Source: Candidatus Sumerlaeota bacterium (GTDB taxonomy: Bacteria; Sumerlaeota; Sumerlaeia; MWCT01). Taken from it: a DNA stretch of 36,712 nucleotides. Below, piece after piece: positions 5,796 through 26,282 of the stretch. The stretch is from positions 1-36,712 of the forward strand of contig JAFGFK010000402.1 in the NCBI GenBank assembly GCA_016931135.1. Direction: 5' to 3'. A program made the position numbers and the translations under genes. The number at the start of each line of letters is the position of its first letter. Positions within the stretch are counted from its first letter, which is position 1. The notes under the pieces are model-generated. The model was not told the origin of the DNA. It saw only the letters and a list, made by a program, of their open reading frames with translations, and searched no databases.

Positions 5796-7790
5796 ATGGT
5801 CGATAAACTTCAGGATACTCAATCGAGCGATCAATTGGGCGCCTCTCTTGTCAAGGAGGGGATACTGTCCCAGCCCCAGCTTCAACACGCCCTTCAGGTC
5901 CAATTGGACTCCTTTGAGAAAAAACGACTCGGTCAGATACTTGTCGATCTGGGTTATGTGGATACCAGCCAGATCAGAGAAGTATCCCGTAAATACGGAC
6001 TCAGACAACCTCTTGGGGAATTGCTGATTGAATGCGGATTTCTTACTGAAGAGGAACTCGATTCCGCGCTGGAGATGCAGAAACCTTCCGGGAAACGTCT
6101 GGGAGAGTATCTGCTGGAAAGTAACCGGATCACCGAGGAGCGTCTTGCCCGCGCCTTGAGCCTTCAGACCGATCTTCCCTACATCCTTCCCAATAAACGC
6201 CTTGTTGACCAGGCGGTCTTTCAAAAATTCACCCCCGCTTTTCTAAGGCAATTCAACGTTTTGCCTCTCTTTAAAAATGAGGATGTCACAACCGTGCTGG
6301 TTCATGATCCTTTCGACAAGGAAATGCTGCGAATGCTGAATAGCCTGGTAAAAGGGAAAACGGAATTCGCCATAGGACCAAAATCAAACATTGTCAAGGT
6401 GTTGGGCGAGATGCTGGAGGAGCGCGCCCTGATTTCGCAAACGGGCAGAATCGCCACGGAAGATAATGCGATCAATACCTCCTTTCAGAGGTACGATCTG
6501 GACAAGGCAATGAGCGGCTCGATATCCAGCGCGCAAGCTGTGAGCATCGTGGATTATATCATGTCCAACGCCTTTTCCCAAGGCGCCAGCGATATTCATA
6601 TCGATTCCATGTATAACAAGCTCAGGGTAAGGCACAGGGTGGATGGCGTCCTGATTTTTGATACGGACCTTCCGAAGAATGTTTCGGAAGCTGTCATCCG
6701 CAGGATCAAGGTTCTTTCCAAGATCGAGATCAGTGACGCATCTACCGCTTCGGATGGCCATATCTATGTAAAGTACCTGGATAAAAATATCGATTTGCGC
6801 GTTTCGATCTTCCCTACAGTTCTTGGACCATCGATTACGATCCGTTCCCTCAGTAAAGAGATAGGTTTGAAAAACCTCGAAGACCTGGGAATGCTGCCCA
6901 GGGGGCTTACGACCTTGAAACAGATTCTGGATTCCCCGGCGGGACTGATCCTTTTTGCGGGGCCAACCGGATCGGGCAAAACAACTTCTCTTTATGCGTG
7001 CCTGAATTATTTGAATCATGATGACCTGAAAATATGCACCGTGGAATCGCCTGTAGAGTACAGCATCGAAGGCGTGGCGCAATGCCAGCTCCGTTCCCAG
7101 GAACGGGATCAGATAGGCGAGCGGGTGAAAGCCATGCTGCATCAGGATGCGGACATCATTGTTCTGGGAGAGATCAATGATGAGGATTCCGCAAAGACCG
7201 CCGTGGTCGCCGCTTTGACCGGGCACAAGGTCTTTTCCACCATTCATACAGAAGATACCTTCGGCGCGATCTTAAGGCTCATGGATATGGGTATGCGGAA
7301 ATATCTTCTCACAAGTACGGGAGTGGCTTCCATAGCCCAGCGGCTCCTTCGTAAGGTATGCGGGCAATGCCAAAAGCCCTACAGACCGGAGAGGAGCCTC
7401 TTCCGGCATTATAACCTGAAACATTTCGATCCGGACAATTGGGAATTTTATCGCGGCGCAGGATGCGCCGCCTGCCACCAGAATGGATTCCTGGGGAGAA
7501 CCGGAGTATTTGAGATTCTGACCGTCAATGAGGAAATCCGCAACGCCTTCCTGGATAATCAGAGCGCCTCTTCCCTTCGCAAACTTGCCCAGAACACGAA
7601 ATCATATCTATCTCTGCGGGAAGCCGGTTTTATCAAATCGCTTCAGGGGGAAACTACGCTGGAGGACGCCTTGGGAATATTGTCTTACAGTGAAAAGCAA
7701 TCCTTTGGCGCCATGGAACTTACAGAAGAAGATATTAAGTATTGGATGAATATAACCGGAGATGCGGAACATGATAAAGTGGCTTTATAA
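5796..7790 (+). CDS. Type IV pilus assembly / type II secretion ATPase (PilB/GspE family)
   Basis: The 664-residue protein is the cytoplasmic hexameric motor that drives pilus extension or type II secretion. The first about 200 residues carry repeated MshEN-type L-G-x-x-L-x-x-x-G-x-x-x-x-x-x-L motifs, the c-di-GMP-binding module of some PilB/GspE proteins. The catalytic half has A-S-D-I-H-I-D, R-H-R-V-D-G-V-L, Walker A GPTGSGKTT (K395), a Walker B-like D-I-I-V-L-G-E-I and the His box S-T-I-H-T. Two C-x-x-C pairs near residues 515-565 form the usual zinc site of this family. The start at 5796 follows AAGAGGTG by about 6 nt. The next gene begins before this one stops, so the two are translationally coupled. 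PilB and GspE cannot be told apart here because no pilin, PilC/GspF or secretin gene is in the window. Confidence 0.93.
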   Translation: MVDKLQDTQSSDQLGASLVKEGILSQPQLQHALQVQLDSFEKKRLGQILVDLGYVDTSQIREVSRKYGLRQPLGELLIECGFLTEEELDSALEMQKPSGKRLGEYLLESNRITEERLARALSLQTDLPYILPNKRLVDQAVFQKFTPAFLRQFNVLPLFKNEDVTTVLVHDPFDKEMLRMLNSLVKGKTEFAIGPKSNIVKVLGEMLEERALISQTGRIATEDNAINTSFQRYDLDKAMSGSISSAQAVSIVDYIMSNAFSQGASDIHIDSMYNKLRVRHRVDGVLIFDTDLPKNVSEAVIRRIKVLSKIEISDASTASDGHIYVKYLDKNIDLRVSIFPTVLGPSITIRSLSKEIGLKNLEDLGMLPRGLTTLKQILDSPAGLILFAGPTGSGKTTSLYACLNYLNHDDLKICTVESPVEYSIEGVAQCQLRSQERDQIGERVKAMLHQDADIIVLGEINDEDSAKTAVVAALTGHKVFSTIHTEDTFGAILRLMDMGMRKYLLTSTGVASIAQRLLRKVCGQCQKPYRPERSLFRHYNLKHFDPDNWEFYRGAGCAACHQNGFLGRTGVFEILTVNEEIRNAFLDNQSASSLRKLAQNTKSYLSLREAGFIKSLQGETTLEDALGILSYSEKQSFGAMELTEEDIKYWMNITGDAEHDKVAL

Positions 7791-10700
7791 AAAATACGCC
7801 GACGGGCTCGTTGCCAAGGGACAAAAAAGAAAAGCCCTTGTCTGGTATCGCAAGGCTGGCGATCTCAAACGCATGGCGGATATTCTCTTTGACTTGGGCG
7901 ATTACGAGGAGGCGATGAAGCAGTACGCATCCCTCTCCTTTTTTGAAAGAGCTGCGCAGGTCGCCCTGAAAGCCGGGCGGAACGATCTTGCCTTGGAGTA
8001 TTTTCGCAAAACTTCCAATCTGAAAGAGGCGGCAAGGCAACTCCTGGAAGCGGGAGACATCAAATCCTACGCCGTTTTGATGTCTGAACAGGACATGAAA
8101 CAGGAGGCTGCCGAAACGCTGGAAAAAATGGGGCAGCTGACCAGCGCGGCAAGGTTGTATGCTGAGATGGAAAATTTCGAGAAGGCAATCGCCCTTTTCC
8201 GTCAATGTCAGAGCTGGGATCAGATGATATCTGCTTATAAGGCAAGAGGGGACCTGGAAAAAGCGGCGGAGGAATGCCTGGAACATGAGGAGTTCCAGGT
8301 GGCCGCGGCGCTCTATACCCTCAATGAACAATTCAGCCACGCCGCAGAGGTCTATATGCGTCTTGGAAGGAAGGACAAGGCTCTGGAGTTGTTTGAAAAT
8401 GCTGGGGATTTTGAGTCTATTGCACAGATCCATATTGGTTCTGGGAGATTGGACATGGCAGCCCTGGCTTATGAAAAAATTCCAGGCATGGATCATATGG
8501 CGGGAGAAATCTATGAAAAACTTCTCATATTGGATGAGATGGATGTCATTAGCTTCAAAAATAATATTCAATGCGGAGTGGCGTCTTCCGATGGATCCGG
8601 CTTTGTGCTTTGTAAAGTCAACCGGTCTGTCACCTATACGACATCCGATTTGAATCCCAAATGGAGAATTATCGCTGGGGGCGATGGCATTCCCAGGGCG
8701 GTTGACATGACAAAGGAAGGCAAGCATATAATTGTCGGTACGGAAGGGACAGTCCTCGGTAAAGACAATTTCCTGACGCTTATTACGAATAAGAAAGAAA
8801 TCTTATGGGAAAAAAGCCTTCCGGAACCGGTCAAGGCGGTCAAGTTTCTTGCCAATGATACTGACTTCGTCGCTGCTATCGGCGACGAAGTCTATTGCTT
8901 TTCCATAAAGGGAGAGGAAAAGTGGGCGAGAGAGGTCGATTTCAAACCCTGGTCGATCGATGTGTCATCCGGGGGCGACCGGCTGCTCGTGGGGACTCTG
9001 GGGGGAACCGTTTATCTCTTGAATTCCCTGGGAGATGAAAAGGGGCGCTATTCCTTCGGAGAACGCATCCATCGCATCCAGTTTACTCCGGATGGGGAAA
9101 ATTTCATTGCCGCATGGGGCGATAAAAGTATTATTTATTGCAATATGAACTTCGAGAAAATCTGGGAATATTCGAGCGATGACCAGGTTCGCATGATGAA
9201 AGTCTATCCGGGAAGGGATGCGATCATATCCCTGACCACCCGGGAAATATCCCTCATAAACCTGGAAGGCGACAGGATTTACGCTGCGCCTTTCGAACAG
9301 AAAATCATGACATTTTTTACCGATGACTTCTCGAAAACGCTTTATGTCGCGCTGGAAGACAAAACCCTCCACAAGTATTCTATACGGGATTGCAAGATCA
9401 AGGCGGCGGAGTGTTTCACGCGCGCCGGGAATAAAAGCAGGGCTGCGATCATTTATCGGAGCGTGGAACGCTATTCGGAAGCCTATAACCTGTTCAAGGA
9501 AATCGGAGATTTTGAAAATGCGGCCAGCACCCTGCATCTTACCGGAGACCTGCTGACTTCGGCAAGGCATTACGAGGTCATCGGAAAATATGAAACGGCA
9601 GCGGATATTTACAAGGAGATCGGAGAACTCAACCTTGCCGCCAAGTGCTATGGCAAAGCCGGGAAGTATCAGGACGCAGCGACCTTGTATGAAGAATTGG
9701 GAGATTATATCCTGGCTGCGGATTTTTATGAAAGAGTCGGGCAATACAAGAAGGCGGGGATTCTATTCTCCAACGCCCAGCAGGATGAACGCGCCGTCCT
9801 CAACTATGAATCTCATATCAAGGAATTCCCTCAGGACAAGGAAACCATGTTCGAACTGGGGAAAAATTATCAGAAGATGGAAAGGTACGATGACGCCATC
9901 AGGATGTTTCAGAAGATTACCGAAACGCCGGAATATAAAAAGGATTCCCTGAAAAGACTCGGACAATGTTTCCTCTCCAACAAGATTTACGACGTGGCTC
10001 TCGATCGTTTCTTTGAATGCCTCGGGAAGGACGCCAAACCATCGCAGGACAATATCGACGTTTTATATGATATCGGCAAAACGTACCTTGAAAAAGGCGA
10101 TTATGAAAACGCCAAAGCGACCTTCGGGAAAGTCATGGCAATCGACTATTATTACAAGGATATCCAGGAACGCCTGAGAACCTCCGAGAGACTCGCAACC
10201 CGCCAGATTCAGGAAGCGGAGGTCGCCGCCACGCGCATGGTGGATACGGCGCAGGCTCCCGCAAGCGTCGTCGAGACGCAGCCCCATATACGGTATAAAA
10301 TCATCAAAAAACTCGGCGAAGGCGGCATGGGAGTCGTCTATCTGGCAAATGACACCAAACTCAATCGCCAGGTCGCCTGGAAGGTTTTGCCGCCCGCCAT
10401 GGCGAAAGATGAAGACATGAAGAAGCGTATGTTGAACGAAGCGCGCGCTGCGGCAAAACTCTCTCATCATAACATTATTTCCATCTATGATATCATCATG
10501 ACCGAAAACGAGTGTTCCATTATCATGGAATATATTGATGGAATAACATTAAGAACATTGATATACAGACAGCCCCAGCTTCCCCTGGATAAGGTGATGC
10601 GTTATGGAACTCAGATTTCCCAGGCGCTTCAGGCTGCGCATCATTCCGGCATCATCCACAGGGATCTGAAACCGGAAAATATCATGATTACATCGGAAAA

Positions 10701-11073
10701 CGATGAAGTAAAAGTGGTGGATTTCGGTCTGGCGCGCCTCGGCGATGATATGCATTTGACAAGAGAGGGGTGCATCCTGGGAACTATTCCTTACATGGCG
10801 CCCGAGCAGATCATGGCGCGCGATATTGTTCCCCAGACCGATCTTTACGCCCTGGGAATCATTCTCTATGAAATGCTTGTCGGCAAGACCCCGTTTACCG
10901 GCGAGAATGTGCTTGCCCAGCATCTTAACAACGCGCCTCCGAATCTTCTTGAATTGCGCATTGATACGCCCGCCTTTCTCAACGATCTGGTAATGGATTG
11001 TCTGGAAAAAGACCCCAAGAGCCGCCCCATTGGATCTTCTCAGATTATCGAAAGACTCAAGGGCGATAAGTAA
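7771..11073 (+). CDS. TPR / beta-propeller / TPR / C-terminal Ser-Thr protein kinase fusion
   Basis: In this 1100-residue protein, residues about 1-255 are TPR-like helical repeats, about 263-540 are a WD40/PQQ-like beta-propeller with repeated blade motifs, and about 545-805 are further TPRs (A-A-D-F-Y-E-R-V-G-Q-Y-type units). Residues 842-1100 are a complete Hanks-type kinase with G-E-G-G-M-G-V-V-Y, K871 in V-A-W-K, H-R-D-L-K-P-E-N (D965), D-F-G (D984) and M-A-P-E-Q. All catalytic residues are present, so it should be active. The V-A-W-K triad replaces the usual V-A-I/L-K. No signal peptide or membrane segment is evident, so it is probably cytoplasmic. Most bacterial kinases of this type have the kinase at the N-terminus; here it is at the end. 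It overlaps the ATPase gene by 20 nt; GGAG at 7758-7761 favours the ATG at 7771 over that at 7762. I infer that it senses or scaffolds and phosphorylates the neighbouring motor or its partners. Confidence 0.88.
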   Translation: MIKWLYKKYADGLVAKGQKRKALVWYRKAGDLKRMADILFDLGDYEEAMKQYASLSFFERAAQVALKAGRNDLALEYFRKTSNLKEAARQLLEAGDIKSYAVLMSEQDMKQEAAETLEKMGQLTSAARLYAEMENFEKAIALFRQCQSWDQMISAYKARGDLEKAAEECLEHEEFQVAAALYTLNEQFSHAAEVYMRLGRKDKALELFENAGDFESIAQIHIGSGRLDMAALAYEKIPGMDHMAGEIYEKLLILDEMDVISFKNNIQCGVASSDGSGFVLCKVNRSVTYTTSDLNPKWRIIAGGDGIPRAVDMTKEGKHIIVGTEGTVLGKDNFLTLITNKKEILWEKSLPEPVKAVKFLANDTDFVAAIGDEVYCFSIKGEEKWAREVDFKPWSIDVSSGGDRLLVGTLGGTVYLLNSLGDEKGRYSFGERIHRIQFTPDGENFIAAWGDKSIIYCNMNFEKIWEYSSDDQVRMMKVYPGRDAIISLTTREISLINLEGDRIYAAPFEQKIMTFFTDDFSKTLYVALEDKTLHKYSIRDCKIKAAECFTRAGNKSRAAIIYRSVERYSEAYNLFKEIGDFENAASTLHLTGDLLTSARHYEVIGKYETAADIYKEIGELNLAAKCYGKAGKYQDAATLYEELGDYILAADFYERVGQYKKAGILFSNAQQDERAVLNYESHIKEFPQDKETMFELGKNYQKMERYDDAIRMFQKITETPEYKKDSLKRLGQCFLSNKIYDVALDRFFECLGKDAKPSQDNIDVLYDIGKTYLEKGDYENAKATFGKVMAIDYYYKDIQERLRTSERLATRQIQEAEVAATRMVDTAQAPASVVETQPHIRYKIIKKLGEGGMGVVYLANDTKLNRQVAWKVLPPAMAKDEDMKKRMLNEARAAAKLSHHNIISIYDIIMTENECSIIMEYIDGITLRTLIYRQPQLPLDKVMRYGTQISQALQAAHHSGIIHRDLKPENIMITSENDEVKVVDFGLARLGDDMHLTREGCILGTIPYMAPEQIMARDIVPQTDLYALGIILYEMLVGKTPFTGENVLAQHLNNAPPNLLELRIDTPAFLNDLVMDCLEKDPKSRPIGSSQIIERLKGDK

Positions 11074-14623: not shown

Positions 14624-15691
14624 TTGTTTGATATAACCGATCTATTGAAAATGGCGGTTGAAAGGGATGCTTCCGACCTTCATGTTGTCGTGGGAAGACC
14701 TCCGGTTTTAAGAATGGACGGCCTCCTTCGCGATGTGGAAGACATGCAGTCCCTTTCAGCAGCGGATACCCACCGTTTTATTTACAGTATCCTGACCGAC
14801 CTTCAAAAGCAGAAATTCGAGCAAAACAAGGAGCTGGATTTCTCGCTTTCCATTTCCAATGTGGCAAGGTTCCGCGTGAATGTTCACTTTCAAAGGGGGA
14901 GTGTGGCTTCCGCTTTCAGAACCATTCCTTCCATTATCCGGAATTTCGAGGAACTTCACCTTCCCAAGCAGGTCTGTGAGAGGCTGGCGCGCAGACCTGC
15001 AGGCTTGATCCTTATCACAGGTCCTACAGGTTCCGGAAAGTCCACCACGCTTGCCGCCATGGTCGATCTCATCAACAAGGAACGAGAATGTCATGTGATA
15101 ACGATTGAAGACCCCATCGAGTATCTGCATTCGCATAAAAAGGCTTTGATCGAACAGCGGGAAGTGAACGAAGACACATATTCCTTTGCCAACGCCTTGA
15201 AATATGTCCTGCGCCAGGACCCGGACGTCATCATGGTGGGTGAAATGAGGGATCTCGAAACTATCAGCGCAGCGATTACCGCTGCGGAAACCGGACACCT
15301 TGTTTTTTCCACCCTGCATACCGTTGACGTATGCCAGACAATTGACCGTATTATCGATGTTTTTCCTCCTCATCAGCAGGAGCAGATCAGAATCCAGATG
15401 GCGGGAGTGCTGGAGGGAGTGCTCTGTCAGAAACTGCTTCCCTCCTCGCATGGACGCGGCAGGGAAATCGCCGTTGAGATCATGGTGGCGACGGAAGCCA
15501 TCCGAAGCCTGATCCGGGAAGGCAAGACCCATCAGATTTACGCCATGCTGGAAGCGGGAGGACAATGGGGTATGCAGACCATGGATCGCGCGCTTTTGAA
15601 TCTTTACAAAAAGGGACGCATTACCAAGGAATTGACTCTCCTGAACGCCAGAAACCAGGAAGAGATGAGAAGACACATGTTCAGTCCATAA
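14624..15691 (+). CDS. pilT: Twitching motility / pilus retraction ATPase PilT
   Basis: The 355-residue protein belongs to the retraction ATPase branch of the PilT/PilU family. Markers are an N-terminal A-S-D-L-H, Walker A GPTGSGKSTT (K139), the Asp box E-D-P-I-E-Y, the Walker B-like D-P-D-V-I-M-V-G-E-M-R-D, the His box S-T-L-H-T, and the C-terminal A-I-R-S-L-I-R-E-G-K motif typical of PilT. It has none of the N-terminal MshEN or zinc modules of PilB/GspE. The TTG start at 14624 follows AAAGGAGG (14608-14614) at 9 nt. It leads a run with the bifunctional-nuclease-family gene and is divergent from queA. The paired extension-type ATPase at 5796 is about 7 kb away. Confidence 0.93.
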   Translation: MFDITDLLKMAVERDASDLHVVVGRPPVLRMDGLLRDVEDMQSLSAADTHRFIYSILTDLQKQKFEQNKELDFSLSISNVARFRVNVHFQRGSVASAFRTIPSIIRNFEELHLPKQVCERLARRPAGLILITGPTGSGKSTTLAAMVDLINKERECHVITIEDPIEYLHSHKKALIEQREVNEDTYSFANALKYVLRQDPDVIMVGEMRDLETISAAITAAETGHLVFSTLHTVDVCQTIDRIIDVFPPHQQEQIRIQMAGVLEGVLCQKLLPSSHGRGREIAVEIMVATEAIRSLIREGKTHQIYAMLEAGGQWGMQTMDRALLNLYKKGRITKELTLLNARNQEEMRRHMFSP

Positions 15692-22034: not shown

Positions 22035-25000
22035 ATGATCGATATGTCTGAAACATTGAATGACAGGATATCGCATCTCTTTCAGGAATTCAGATACTGC
22101 GAGATTCGAAAGATCTTCATGGATTCCCGCACTGGGCTTTTTTCCGGCGATACCGCGCCGTCTTCTAATCTGAAGAATCTCCTGCTTCTCTTTTCCCGGA
22201 GTCTTAAGGAACTGGGATATCGCCGGATGTCTCATAAATTGCTTTCTCATATCCTGAAAAAAGATTCGGATGTGGATTATCTTCTCGAATACGCCCAATC
22301 CTGCCTTGAATATCAGAATGTGATCAAGGCGCTGAAAACCCTCGATCAGGTACGGGAATCCGGAACGACGCGCGAAGATCATATCTTCATGATGCACGCC
22401 CTTTATAGCTGGATGTACGCCCTGATGGACGCTTTTGAGTCTGCGGAATCAAGCCTTGCTCGGGCTTCGGAATATGCAACGCCTTTGAATGAAGAGTTCT
22501 TTACCGTAACGCAATCCCGCATATTTTTCATCAGAGGCGACTGGGAAAAAGCTCAAAGCCCCCTGGTTTCGCTCCTTGCCGGAAAACCGGCGTTCTTCTC
22601 CGCGCTCCTGAGGCTGGCTTTCATCCAGGCGCAGTCCGGGCAATGGGACCTGGCGATCAAGAATTATACCCACGCCCTCCAGATTCGTCCCGAATCTTTT
22701 TCGCCGATCTATGAATTGGGCTATCTTTTCCTCAAAACCGCCCATTATGAAGAGGCTTATGAAGCGCTCCTGAACGCAAACAATCTCTCGCCGGATAATG
22801 ATTATTCCCGATCCCTTTGTTGGGGCATTGGATTTTCCCTTTTTCAACAGAAACAATGCGAAAAAGCCCTTTCCTGGTTCCGCAAGGCGCAATCGAAGGA
22901 TATGGTGAAAGCCTGCCTGAATCTCCAACTGGGGAAGACGGAAGAACAAATAGAGATCCGGTTGCCCTTTCCTGAAATGGACACGGCTCATTTCCCGGAA
23001 AAACCGCCTGTCGAATATCTTTTGAATTACTGGAAAAGAGATTTCAAGCCCCCTCGGGAAACGGATGATATTTCCCTGATTTCCAATTTCCGCGCGATTC
23101 TTGAACGCAATCAACTCAAGACGCGCAGTTTCATTGCTACGCCCGAAAGAATCATCCGACTCTTAAGAATGGAACTGCCCGTTGTGGTTCTGCTTTCGGA
23201 TTTCGACGGACGCCATTATCATATCGTTACTGGATACAATTCCCTTACAGATTGTTTCGCAATGGATATAGCCGGTGAAATGGAATATTCCAGAGATGAT
23301 CTTTTCGAAAAGATGCGCTCCACAGATTATTGGGCAATGGCGGCTTTTCCCGAACACAAGGCGGATATTGTTTCTTCGGTTTGTCCGGTGGAAGATGATG
23401 AATGTTTTCGAGCGCTGGAAAAAGCGGAAGAGGATTTGTCTTACCTGAGACTCGCCATTTCCAAAAGGCGGATCGAATCCGTCCCCCCCGGACATGGTTA
23501 CATGATGAGGCTGAGGCTTCTGCATTCCCTGAGGAAACTGAACAGACCCGCCGCCTCCCTGGAACCAACCATAAAAATCATACTCAAGGCGTCCAATTAT
23601 TCCGAGCCGGAACTGGGATTTGCCGCAAGGGAATATTTCATGATGAAGCGTTATTCCGATTGCATGGACACGGCGAAAAAATCCCTCTGCGCAAAAAGTC
23701 CCGGAGCCGCTTTCCTCTGCGCCCAGTCAGCGCTGGAAATGGACTTGATTCCGCAAGCCCTCAGATACAACGCCCTGGGTCTTTCACGATTTCCCGATGA
23801 TGTCGATCTGATCATCCAGAGAGGCGCCGCTTTTCGCAGGAATTATGATTACAGGGAATGCTTCCGTTTCTTCCGGATCGTACAGGAATCATGTCCGGAT
23901 TATCCCCCCCTCCTGAGGGAAGTCGGTGAAACATACCGCCTGATGCGGCAATACGACAAGGCGGAGGAATATCTGAATCGCTCTATCGAACTGACGCCGG
24001 ATGACAGCCTTTCCTGGCAGTCGATCCTCGCTGTTTATGAGGAACAATACCGTTATCAAACCGCTGAGAAAACATGTCAGAATGTCTTGCAACAGAATCC
24101 GGATAAGGAATGGGCGTATATTTTTGTGAGTAATTTCTATCTGCGTCAATCCATGTTTCCCGAGGCTCTCTCGATTCTGGATGAGGGGCTTCGCAACCAT
24201 CCGGATTCGATTCAATTGAACTTGATTCGCCTGGAAATCCTGGAAAGATCCGGAGAGACAGGCAAAGCCGAAAAAGGCTACCGGCTGCTTTTGGACAAGC
24301 GACATAACAACAAGTTGATCCAGGTTCATTATGCGATCTTCCTGACGAACAAGGATAGCTATGAAGAAGCGTACCCGATTTTTGAAAATGTGACGATGAC
24401 GGATCCGGACTTCCAGCCCGCGATCATCGGAATGGCCCGGTGGTATGCCCTGCAAAACAATCTTCAGCTCGCCCTTGACCTTGTCAAACGCTCTCTTACC
24501 ATGAATAAATCCGATTCCGAGCTGGTTACCTTTCTTTATCGCCTGTGTATTCCCCTGGATGCGATCAAGGAGGGAGCTCATTTTCTCCTGGCTTTATCAC
24601 GGGATTCCTCCAGTTACCTCAATGCGGGATATCTTTTTGAAATCACGGATGATTTCGATCAGGCGTCGAGACTGTACCGAAAGGCGCATACCTTACAGAA
24701 AAACAATCCCCAGCCCTTATTCCGGATTGCTCAAATCCATCATAAAAAGGGGGACATCGAGGAAGCGGAGAAGATTTACAAAGAGGTCCTGGAGATCGAT
24801 CCCCGCCATGACTTCGTTCTGGAAGGACTGGCATTGATTTCCCTGGAAAAAACCGATATTTCCAATGCCATGGGTTACCTGGAACGATTGTTGACCGTCT
24901 ATCCGGATTATGAAAGGGCGCAGGAATTATACGTTGAAATTGCGGAGGCGAGGCAGCGGTTCGAACGCTGCCGCGCCTTTCTCGAGGCGCTGTCTCCCCA

Positions 25001-26282
25001 ATCGGAGTATCCCGCCCATTTTTCGCTTCTTCTGGGCAAGATCGCGGAAGCGGAAAATAATTTCGACTTAGCCTTTCACTACTACAATCAATCCCTGCAA
25101 TTCGATGACGCTTATATCCCTTCCCATCTTCAGATGGCGCTCTTTGAAATGAAAAGAAAAAATTATGAGGCGTCCAAGTCTATACTGGATAAATGTGTGG
25201 CGTTACAGCCCTATTTACCCGAAATCTTCGTTCTCAGGGCGCAGTTATGGGAAAAAATGGGGAAAAGAAGTCTTGCCATCAAGGATTGCTGTAAGGCGAT
25301 GGAACTGGGCAAAACGGACGATGAAATGGAATTGGAACCTTACGATTTGCTTGCCGAGCTGACAAGCGCGGAAGAAATCAATCGCGATTCGCTTGAAAAG
25401 CATTATCGAGTCATTCTTCCAGGACAGTTCTATTCCCTTCTGGGGGGGGCGTACGAGAGGAAAGGGGATATGAACGGCGCCAAGCGTTTGTATGAATTGG
25501 CGGAGCCTTTCAATCCCAATCAGGGCGACTTCGAGGCTATCATAGGCTTGACGTATATCGCTCGATATGAAAACGATCACGCCGCCTTATCCACGATAAG
25601 GGAATATACCCAGTCCCTCCTCGATGAATCTGAAACCCATCCAGAAATGTTCAGTCCCATCGAGCAAGCCAATCTTCGCGAGGCAATCGCCTTTATCCTG
25701 GAAGGAGAGCGTTCCTTGAGCGAACTGAAGGAGTCGCTGAATCATTGGCGGTATGCCCTTAAACTAACGCGTTCCCTATGGGCGCTGGAACACGCCGCGT
25801 ATGCCTGCCTGGATCTCGGGGAACTCACAAAAGATGGAAGCTATTTCCGGGAAGCCATTGTCTATCTGCGTGAACTACGCAATCCCGTAGATGTCCAATC
25901 TATCTTTTCACCCGCCCTGGGAGACGCCTTTTACTTTTTGAACCGATACCAGGACGCTGTACGGGAATATAATACGTTTTTCAACATGGAAGAGAGGGAC
26001 CCCTCCCTTCAGCCCGTCTTTTTTCGTTACCTGGACGCCATGGAAAGAATTCATTCACCGGTAAGCGACATCACGGAACTCGCCGTTCAGAAACTCGAGT
26101 CGCTCCCTACGGACAGGATTTCCGCATCATACCGGAACGCGCTTCAGGAACGCATATTCCATAACTATGTCAGAACCCACCAGCACAGGGCGGCTTTGAG
26201 AACCGCCATTCGAGCAAAGGGATTATTCCAGGGGCTCTTCCGATATTTCAAATCAATCTTCCGAATGGAATCCTCGCCGTAA
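22035..26282 (+). CDS. Giant TPR protein with embedded degenerate C39-peptidase-like domain
   Basis: A 1415-residue protein with TPR-type helical repeats over almost its whole length (for example A-I-K-N-Y-T-H-A-L-Q-I-R-P-E-S near residue 215 and A-E-K-I-Y-K-E-V-L-E-I-D-P near 920). Between about 315 and 450 the repeats are interrupted by a domain that matches the C39 papain-like fold: a P-P-V-E-Y-L-L-N-Y-W helix, a V-V-V-L-L-S-D-F strand, R-H-Y-H-I-V-T-G-Y (H394) and A-M-D-I-A-G-E (D411). The cysteine expected in the first helix (about position 321) is absent, so it should not be a peptidase. No signal peptide or membrane segment is evident. AGGA about 5 nt before the ATG supports the start. 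It is convergent with the YraN gene (18-nt gap). I infer a scaffold that binds a peptide or protein through the dead domain. Confidence 0.8.
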   Translation: MIDMSETLNDRISHLFQEFRYCEIRKIFMDSRTGLFSGDTAPSSNLKNLLLLFSRSLKELGYRRMSHKLLSHILKKDSDVDYLLEYAQSCLEYQNVIKALKTLDQVRESGTTREDHIFMMHALYSWMYALMDAFESAESSLARASEYATPLNEEFFTVTQSRIFFIRGDWEKAQSPLVSLLAGKPAFFSALLRLAFIQAQSGQWDLAIKNYTHALQIRPESFSPIYELGYLFLKTAHYEEAYEALLNANNLSPDNDYSRSLCWGIGFSLFQQKQCEKALSWFRKAQSKDMVKACLNLQLGKTEEQIEIRLPFPEMDTAHFPEKPPVEYLLNYWKRDFKPPRETDDISLISNFRAILERNQLKTRSFIATPERIIRLLRMELPVVVLLSDFDGRHYHIVTGYNSLTDCFAMDIAGEMEYSRDDLFEKMRSTDYWAMAAFPEHKADIVSSVCPVEDDECFRALEKAEEDLSYLRLAISKRRIESVPPGHGYMMRLRLLHSLRKLNRPAASLEPTIKIILKASNYSEPELGFAAREYFMMKRYSDCMDTAKKSLCAKSPGAAFLCAQSALEMDLIPQALRYNALGLSRFPDDVDLIIQRGAAFRRNYDYRECFRFFRIVQESCPDYPPLLREVGETYRLMRQYDKAEEYLNRSIELTPDDSLSWQSILAVYEEQYRYQTAEKTCQNVLQQNPDKEWAYIFVSNFYLRQSMFPEALSILDEGLRNHPDSIQLNLIRLEILERSGETGKAEKGYRLLLDKRHNNKLIQVHYAIFLTNKDSYEEAYPIFENVTMTDPDFQPAIIGMARWYALQNNLQLALDLVKRSLTMNKSDSELVTFLYRLCIPLDAIKEGAHFLLALSRDSSSYLNAGYLFEITDDFDQASRLYRKAHTLQKNNPQPLFRIAQIHHKKGDIEEAEKIYKEVLEIDPRHDFVLEGLALISLEKTDISNAMGYLERLLTVYPDYERAQELYVEIAEARQRFERCRAFLEALSPQSEYPAHFSLLLGKIAEAENNFDLAFHYYNQSLQFDDAYIPSHLQMALFEMKRKNYEASKSILDKCVALQPYLPEIFVLRAQLWEKMGKRSLAIKDCCKAMELGKTDDEMELEPYDLLAELTSAEEINRDSLEKHYRVILPGQFYSLLGGAYERKGDMNGAKRLYELAEPFNPNQGDFEAIIGLTYIARYENDHAALSTIREYTQSLLDESETHPEMFSPIEQANLREAIAFILEGERSLSELKESLNHWRYALKLTRSLWALEHAAYACLDLGELTKDGSYFREAIVYLRELRNPVDVQSIFSPALGDAFYFLNRYQDAVREYNTFFNMEERDPSLQPVFFRYLDAMERIHSPVSDITELAVQKLESLPTDRISASYRNALQERIFHNYVRTHQHRAALRTAIRAKGLFQGLFRYFKSIFRMESSP

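Follow-up and report, generated by a model that had tools for sequence, protein, structure and literature searches.

The 36,712-nucleotide contig JAFGFK010000402.1, analysed here whole and called the window, belongs to a Sumerlaeota metagenome-assembled genome (MAG; GCA_016931135.1, 4.66 Mb, 89% complete) and encodes on its forward strand an extension-type ATPase of the PilB/GspE superfamily (positions 5796..7790, 664 aa) followed directly by a 1100-residue protein (7771..11073) in which two helical solenoids and a beta-propeller precede a C-terminal Ser/Thr kinase, hereafter the scaffold kinase. On the evidence of sequence and gene order we consider it very probable that these two genes constitute a dedicated module. 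Bacterial pilus and secretion motors are tuned by cyclic di-GMP (c-di-GMP) and by small adaptor proteins; should our reading be true, the pair would represent, in two phylum-level lineages, a motor to which a Ser/Thr kinase scaffold is genetically tied, adding phosphorylation to motor control and offering a defined system for asking how a single motor integrates kinase and second-messenger signals. In the open-access full-text literature, a scope that leaves subscription papers outside, we found no Ser/Thr kinase described as paired with a PilB-type ATPase.

The original prediction, made from this sequence alone, had set conservation of the gene pair in relatives as its own test, and here the claim held. 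A full-length scaffold kinase is encoded in 10 of 40 Sumerlaeota genomes, the window genome included, and in all ten the cognate ATPase gene immediately precedes it in the same orientation; one of these, G032, was counted though its scaffold kinase is split into two contig-end pieces, the N-terminal half lying on the ATPase's contig. The orthologous ATPase (49-55% identical) is present in the same ten genomes and in an eleventh, G035, and paralogues reach at most 40% identity over only part of their length. No other neighbouring gene recurs at the pair loci beyond close relatives; the pairing is always ATPase first and same strand, amid otherwise different neighbours. A profile search of 193 further genomes recovered G583, where a full-length scaffold-kinase gene comes straight after that of the ATPase, and a search of 68 genomes of its phylum added a second pair in G651 (2/68 in all). 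In an rpoA tree, built from a short alignment with long branches, G583 fell outside the Sumerlaeota branch (83/85 support); G583 and G651 rule out restriction of the pair to Sumerlaeota. Two additional genomes from the search of 193, G604 and G458, proved by their coordinates to be G030 and G035 again. The paired ATPases fall into a single clade (SH-aLRT, an approximate likelihood-ratio support, 99-100), of which a profile search of 392 Planctomycetota genomes (the phylum of locus L022) recovered no member; its only 2 matches scored like ordinary paralogues. Related ATPases without a kinase were found in G531, G487 and G066, and the unpaired ATPase that the first tree placed closest (L150 in G038, N-terminus masked) has no adjacent kinase. 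Three loci considered as distant pairs, L013, L014 and L032, were rejected because in none does an orthologous ATPase have a scaffold kinase as its neighbour. By inspection only, we also noted a secretin-looking gene near the unpaired relative in G038.

Closer examination of the ATPase supports part of its description as a PilB/GspE-like motor. Membership of the superfamily is secure (Pfam T2SSE, 1.7e-98, 330.2 bits against a gathering score of 24.9), but the identity as PilB or GspE is not borne out, as the protein scores 414.7 bits against the NCBIfam PilB model TIGR02538 (cut-off 675.65) and 409.5 bits against the GspE model TIGR02533 (cut-off 630.25). The same genome, with 15 T2SSE matches, encodes one ATPase that passes the PilB model (C125, 705.5) and one that passes the GspE model (C482, 638.6). 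By sequence, the paired ATPase is best described as a T2SSE-superfamily motor outside both curated families, and it is probably hexameric. Its best match in the PDB is Thermus PilF (6f8l), over the third GSPII domain and the ATPase core (E 7.8e-109); its own predicted structure, with a predicted local distance difference score (pLDDT) of 64, was deemed too weak for a fold search.

Residue by residue, the T2SSE core (residues 251-628, 6537..7670, forward strand) was compared by column counts over 13 ATPases of the kinase-associated clade, the 4 nearest unpaired relatives and 24 other ATPases; residues were placed on Geobacter PilB (R271, R286, E357, E395 and R257) by reading the alignment, with numbering from PMC5424180. 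The catalytic set comprises Walker A (6960-6989), the Asp-box glutamates E420 and E424, the Walker-B glutamate E462, the arginine fingers R338 and R353, the His-box residues H480 and H487 and a C4 zinc site, and the Walker A lysine, each of these named residues and the four cysteines are kept in 13/13 clade members. A strict Walker-A pattern failed on the G583 ATPase, and a pseudo-ATPase there was ruled out by the aligned sequence GPPGTGKTTS. The arginine two residues past the Walker-B glutamate is lost from all 13 clade ATPases (here it is Asn464, codon 7176-7178) and kept in all 28 others, the 4 nearest unpaired relatives among them. Further changes affect R319, retained in just one of the 13, position 325 of the QDG[RK] motif, which is His in eight of them and Arg or Lys in the ATPases outside the clade, and E348, lost only in the Sumerlaeota members. 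The uniform loss of an otherwise invariant arginine beside the catalytic glutamate provides a ready entry point for a mutational test.

The N-terminus of the ATPase carries the MshEN-type repeats that had been predicted for it. Scanning with the published consensus (PMC5013675, PMC11731258) identified four 24-residue motifs at residues 16-39, 47-70, 75-98 and 104-127 (5832..6167, forward strand), separated by spacers of 7, 4 and 5 residues and matching 10, 7, 10 and 9 of 11 key positions, respectively. Motifs 3 and 4 are joined by the 5-residue spacer expected of an MshEN pair, yet neither matches every key position, and the match of these two motifs is lower in some orthologues. A Pfam MshEN match to the C-terminal subdomain follows at residues 129-211 (6171..6419, forward strand; PF05157, 2.2e-11), the ATPase passes the NCBIfam c-di-GMP motif model NF053729 in two stretches (101.2 bits against a cut-off of 38), and 7 GGDEF matches are encoded in this genome. 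Together, the N-terminal motifs suggest that the ATPase may be c-di-GMP-responsive. The idea of a c-di-GMP-type module joined with the kinase and propeller thus survives in that the curated motif model is passed, with the correction that the motifs sit on the ATPase and not on the kinase protein. Given that the related, kinase-less ATPases of G531 and G487 carry four and three such motifs at the same threshold, the array is older than the kinase association.

We modeled the scaffold kinase with AlphaFold2 from 11 aligned sequences (mean pLDDT 84.9, predicted TM-score 0.53), obtaining short helices at residues 2-253, strands at 255-543, helices at 545-818, a disordered linker at 819-842 and the kinase at 845-1100. 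Pfam matches comprise Pkinase (9e-56), TPR, Clathrin/WDR35-type solenoid models and weak propeller models. Two TPR blocks and a beta-propeller had been anticipated; the propeller was recovered as 28 modeled strands forming seven four-stranded blades (residues 255-543, 8524..9390), and residues ~675-818 do resemble TPR, but residues 22-254 and 545-674 are 13-residue helix repeats with an exact period of 13 rather than 34 (autocorrelation peaks at 13, 26 and 39, above every shuffle). Solenoid 1 (residues 22-254, 7825..8523) accordingly consists of 13-residue single-helix repeats with no indel, its best repeat similarity being 0.35 against a shuffle maximum of -0.12, and solenoid 2 (9394..10215) of 13-residue repeats at 545-674 followed by the TPR-type stretch. 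A variable linker with pLDDT below 50 (10216..10287) leads to the kinase domain (residues 845-1089, 10294..11028; all of these features lie on the forward strand).

This C-terminal domain is, as judged from its sequence, the complete Ser/Thr kinase that had been predicted, of the Hanks type and PknB-like. It has the motifs GEGGMG, VAWK, HRDLKPEN, DFG and APE, is of the RD type, and scores 189.6 bits with Pfam Pkinase against a cut-off of 31.7; the motifs are intact in all 10 Sumerlaeota orthologues and in every further member inspected. Foldseek returned PknB-like kinases as the best match and intraflagellar transport complex A (IFT-A) subunits as the best non-kinase matches. The PASTA-kinase model NF033483 gave 304.9, below its cut-off of 450, and no PASTA domain appeared among the Pfam matches. 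By domain, the kinase is the best conserved (58% mean pairwise identity), followed by solenoid 2 at 46%, solenoid 1 at 35% and the propeller at 29%. The position of the kinase, thought unusual at the outset, turned out to be the rule: it is C-terminal in 20/20 related Sumerlaeota TPR-kinases.

Of the possible functional relationships, regulation of the motor by the kinase, with the scaffold kinase as the motor's cofactor and regulator, is in our assessment the likeliest direction, and we place roughly even confidence in it. Here, a c-di-GMP-responsive, probably hexameric PilB/GspE-superfamily motor, falling outside both curated families and having no platform gene nearby, would probably drive a pilus or a type II secretion-like apparatus whose genes lie elsewhere. 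From the pairing, the intact kinase, the intact catalytic set with its clade-specific changes and the c-di-GMP-type motifs, we infer a physical contact, a substrate and a direction of control: the solenoid-propeller-solenoid scaffold would dock on the ATPase and keep its active Ser/Thr kinase close to the motor, the kinase would phosphorylate the ATPase or a partner at the base, and c-di-GMP, through the N-terminal motifs, and phosphorylation would jointly set the timing of motor work. Consistent with this, the fixed gene order persists while the neighbours change, and the kinase is, in the alignments, the most conserved domain of the scaffold kinase, with its motifs intact.

Several observations weigh against this reading. 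A search of the 11 Sumerlaeota loci and of the window for homologues of the GspF/PilC proteins encoded by this genome returned none, although a distant homologue could be missed; because no PilC/GspF was found at the pair loci, it is only the homology of the ATPase that links the module to a pilus or secretion machine. The c-di-GMP key positions differ between orthologues, with the motif 4 glycine replaced by cysteine in G033 and G030. FHA-GAF-histidine kinase genes, found beside two of the pairs, are not co-distributed with the pair. Finally, in the one-contig genome G035 the ATPase remains, in synteny with the G028 locus, yet a full-length scaffold kinase is missing both there and from the rest of the genome, so that the ATPase can survive without the kinase. 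As G035 falls within the paired clade together with G028 and G029, loss of the kinase in G035 is likely; at its locus the scaffold-kinase gene is gone, with ~180 nt left (L170:9989-10164).

The control could also run in reverse: no longer a pilus motor, the ATPase would form a hexamer that senses ATP and c-di-GMP, brings the scaffold kinase into clusters and turns its activity on or off, with phosphorylation of other proteins as the result. The clade-specific losses (the arginine at 464 throughout, R319 in 12/13, the QDG[RK] residue mostly to His, and E348 in the Sumerlaeota members), the failure at both curated cut-offs, the lack of a nearby platform protein and the better conservation of the kinase than of the scaffold all fit this arrangement, and Myxococcus PilB is held in published work (PMC5544727) to act also as a signalling protein. 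However, the core catalytic residues and zinc site are kept in every clade member and the G035 ATPase persists without a kinase; we regard the reversal as unlikely. The broader proposition, that a class of secretion-superfamily ATPases left pilus or secretion duty to become the c-di-GMP/ATP-sensing hexameric platform of a Ser/Thr kinase, bringing second-messenger and phosphorylation systems into one complex, strikes us as rather doubtful.

Alternatively, both proteins might serve the same envelope machine without acting on each other, in which case a coat- or assembly-like scaffold would build or localize the machine and the kinase would target other parts of it. The scaffold fold resembles IFT-A proteins and could bind many partners, the propeller and solenoid 1 diverge fast, and one genome has the ATPase alone, yet pairing with a single ATPase clade despite the 15 T2SSE matches in the genome points to a specific partner, and we find this arrangement improbable. 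That the genes are operon neighbours which stay together through co-transcription or through horizontal transfer as a unit, with no common function, would accord with their patchy spread (10/40 in Sumerlaeota, with two genomes of the same family lacking the pair, and 2/68 in the G583 lineage) but is highly improbable to us, as other neighbours change between genera while the pair stays across two phylum-level lineages and both proteins are well conserved at catalytic positions.

Comparison with known systems places the module of motor and putative regulator relative to its nearest counterparts. The ATPase shares the T2SSE core motifs, the C4 zinc site and N-terminal MshEN/GSPII motifs with PilB/PilF (Thermus PilF, 6f8l; Geobacter PilB, 5tsg) and MshE, but differs from them in its score below the PilB cut-off, in lacking the post-Walker-B arginine and other residues that are invariant in the comparison set, in that no platform gene was seen next to it and in the scaffold kinase downstream; with GspE it shares superfamily and core motifs, while scoring under the TIGR02533 cut-off. 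The scaffold kinase resembles TPR Ser/Thr kinases found in Sumerlaeota as well as in other phyla (such as L002, L105 and L013), which combine a repeat N-terminus with a PknB-like C-terminal kinase and are ~35% identical over TPR and kinase; none of those examined adjoins this ATPase, and the kinases of L013 and L216-L218 lack a full solenoid-propeller-solenoid match. The last three, from the G583 phylum (L216:8005-10323, L217:7274-9760 and L218:6000-8297), are shorter solenoid-TPR-kinases of 765-828 aa with no matching propeller and no adjacent ATPase, and are possible relatives of the scaffold-kinase ancestor. As a dedicated partner of a PilB-type ATPase, the scaffold kinase recalls PilZ and FimX, cytoplasmic proteins described in a review (PMC11656802) as dedicated partners that tie signals to the extension ATPase in Pseudomonas and Xanthomonas; these are not Ser/Thr kinases, and a search of the review for terms on kinases and phosphorylation turned up histidine-kinase pathways only.

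Eukaryotic-type kinases with effects on type IV pili or similar machines include ArnC and ArnD of the Sulfolobus archaellum, which phosphorylate the repressor ArnB (PMC5300886), and Stk1 of Pseudomonas aeruginosa, whose loss alters pilus protein levels (PMC8560001); by the abstracts of both papers the effects are indirect, with neither mentioning a motor-directed kinase or the present gene pair. Propellers joined to alpha-helical repeats also occur in the membrane-coat-like proteins of the Planctomycetes-Verrucomicrobia-Chlamydiae (PVC) group (PMC2799638) and in eukaryotic IFT-A, from which the scaffold kinase differs in its TM-scores of only 0.1-0.24, its solenoid-propeller-solenoid order and its attached kinase. 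From the model comparison, we treat this likeness as resemblance rather than kinship.

At the nucleotide level, the two genes overlap by 20 nt (7771-7790), in agreement with the original prediction of such an overlap and of a second protein of ~1100 residues. The ATPase open reading frame has its longest start at GTG 5787 (667 aa), from which its residues are numbered here, and a likelier start at ATG 5796, with AGAGGTG ~7 nt 5' of it; the scaffold-kinase frame opens at ATG 7762 (1103 aa), again the numbering origin, with ATG 7771 the likelier start, backed by GGAG at 7758-7761 (9 nt spacing) and by several orthologues that begin near that residue, and stops at 11073. Read from the sequence, the overlap region (7758..7790, forward strand) therefore contains the GGAG, both candidate starts and the ATPase stop codon (7788-7790). 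Elsewhere the two genes lie 0-174 nt apart over both lineages, with gaps of 1-174 nt between the longest open reading frames of the Sumerlaeota loci, so the overlap is peculiar to the window genome and the translational coupling suggested for the pair does not hold as a general feature. Promoter and terminator scans of the region gave counts near chance; a hairpin of 13 bp with a T-rich run after it lies within the scaffold-kinase gene (8863-8892), terminator-like sites in the region being no more frequent than chance predicts.

Among the neighbours, genes for FHA-GAF-histidine kinases adjoin the pair on the same strand in genomes of two families, G006 (upstream, ~40 nt) and G013 (downstream, ~12 nt), at L163:12860-14497 and L167:4949-6655. 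Their FHA domains could read phospho-Thr, but since genes of this kind occur widely across the phylum the adjacency is suggestive only, and such a kinase as third obligate component was ruled out, being beside the pair in only 2 loci. In G651 a stand-alone MshEN protein of 265 aa is encoded just upstream of the pair (L215:13060-13857). Only in the window is a PilT-type gene found near the pair: a PilT/PilU-family ATPase (14624-15691; TIGR01420, 473.7 bits against 319.1) ~3.5 kb downstream, followed by a bifunctional nuclease domain gene. A large TPR protein of 1415 residues (22035-26282) lies further along the window, downstream of tsaD. Elsewhere, three Pseudomonadota MAGs encode a HEAT-repeat protein with a C-terminal Ser/Thr kinase immediately 5' of two PilT-type ATPase genes, 16-53 nt away (L017:8483-13216, L026:8390-13082 and L027:8399-13130), and because of these loci the linkage of a kinase with a pilus motor seems to have arisen more than once. 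At a Desulfobacteraceae locus (L032:6440-11149), a CHASE2-Ser/Thr kinase is divergent from an MshEN-T2SSE ATPase that carries a double zinc ribbon at its C-terminus.

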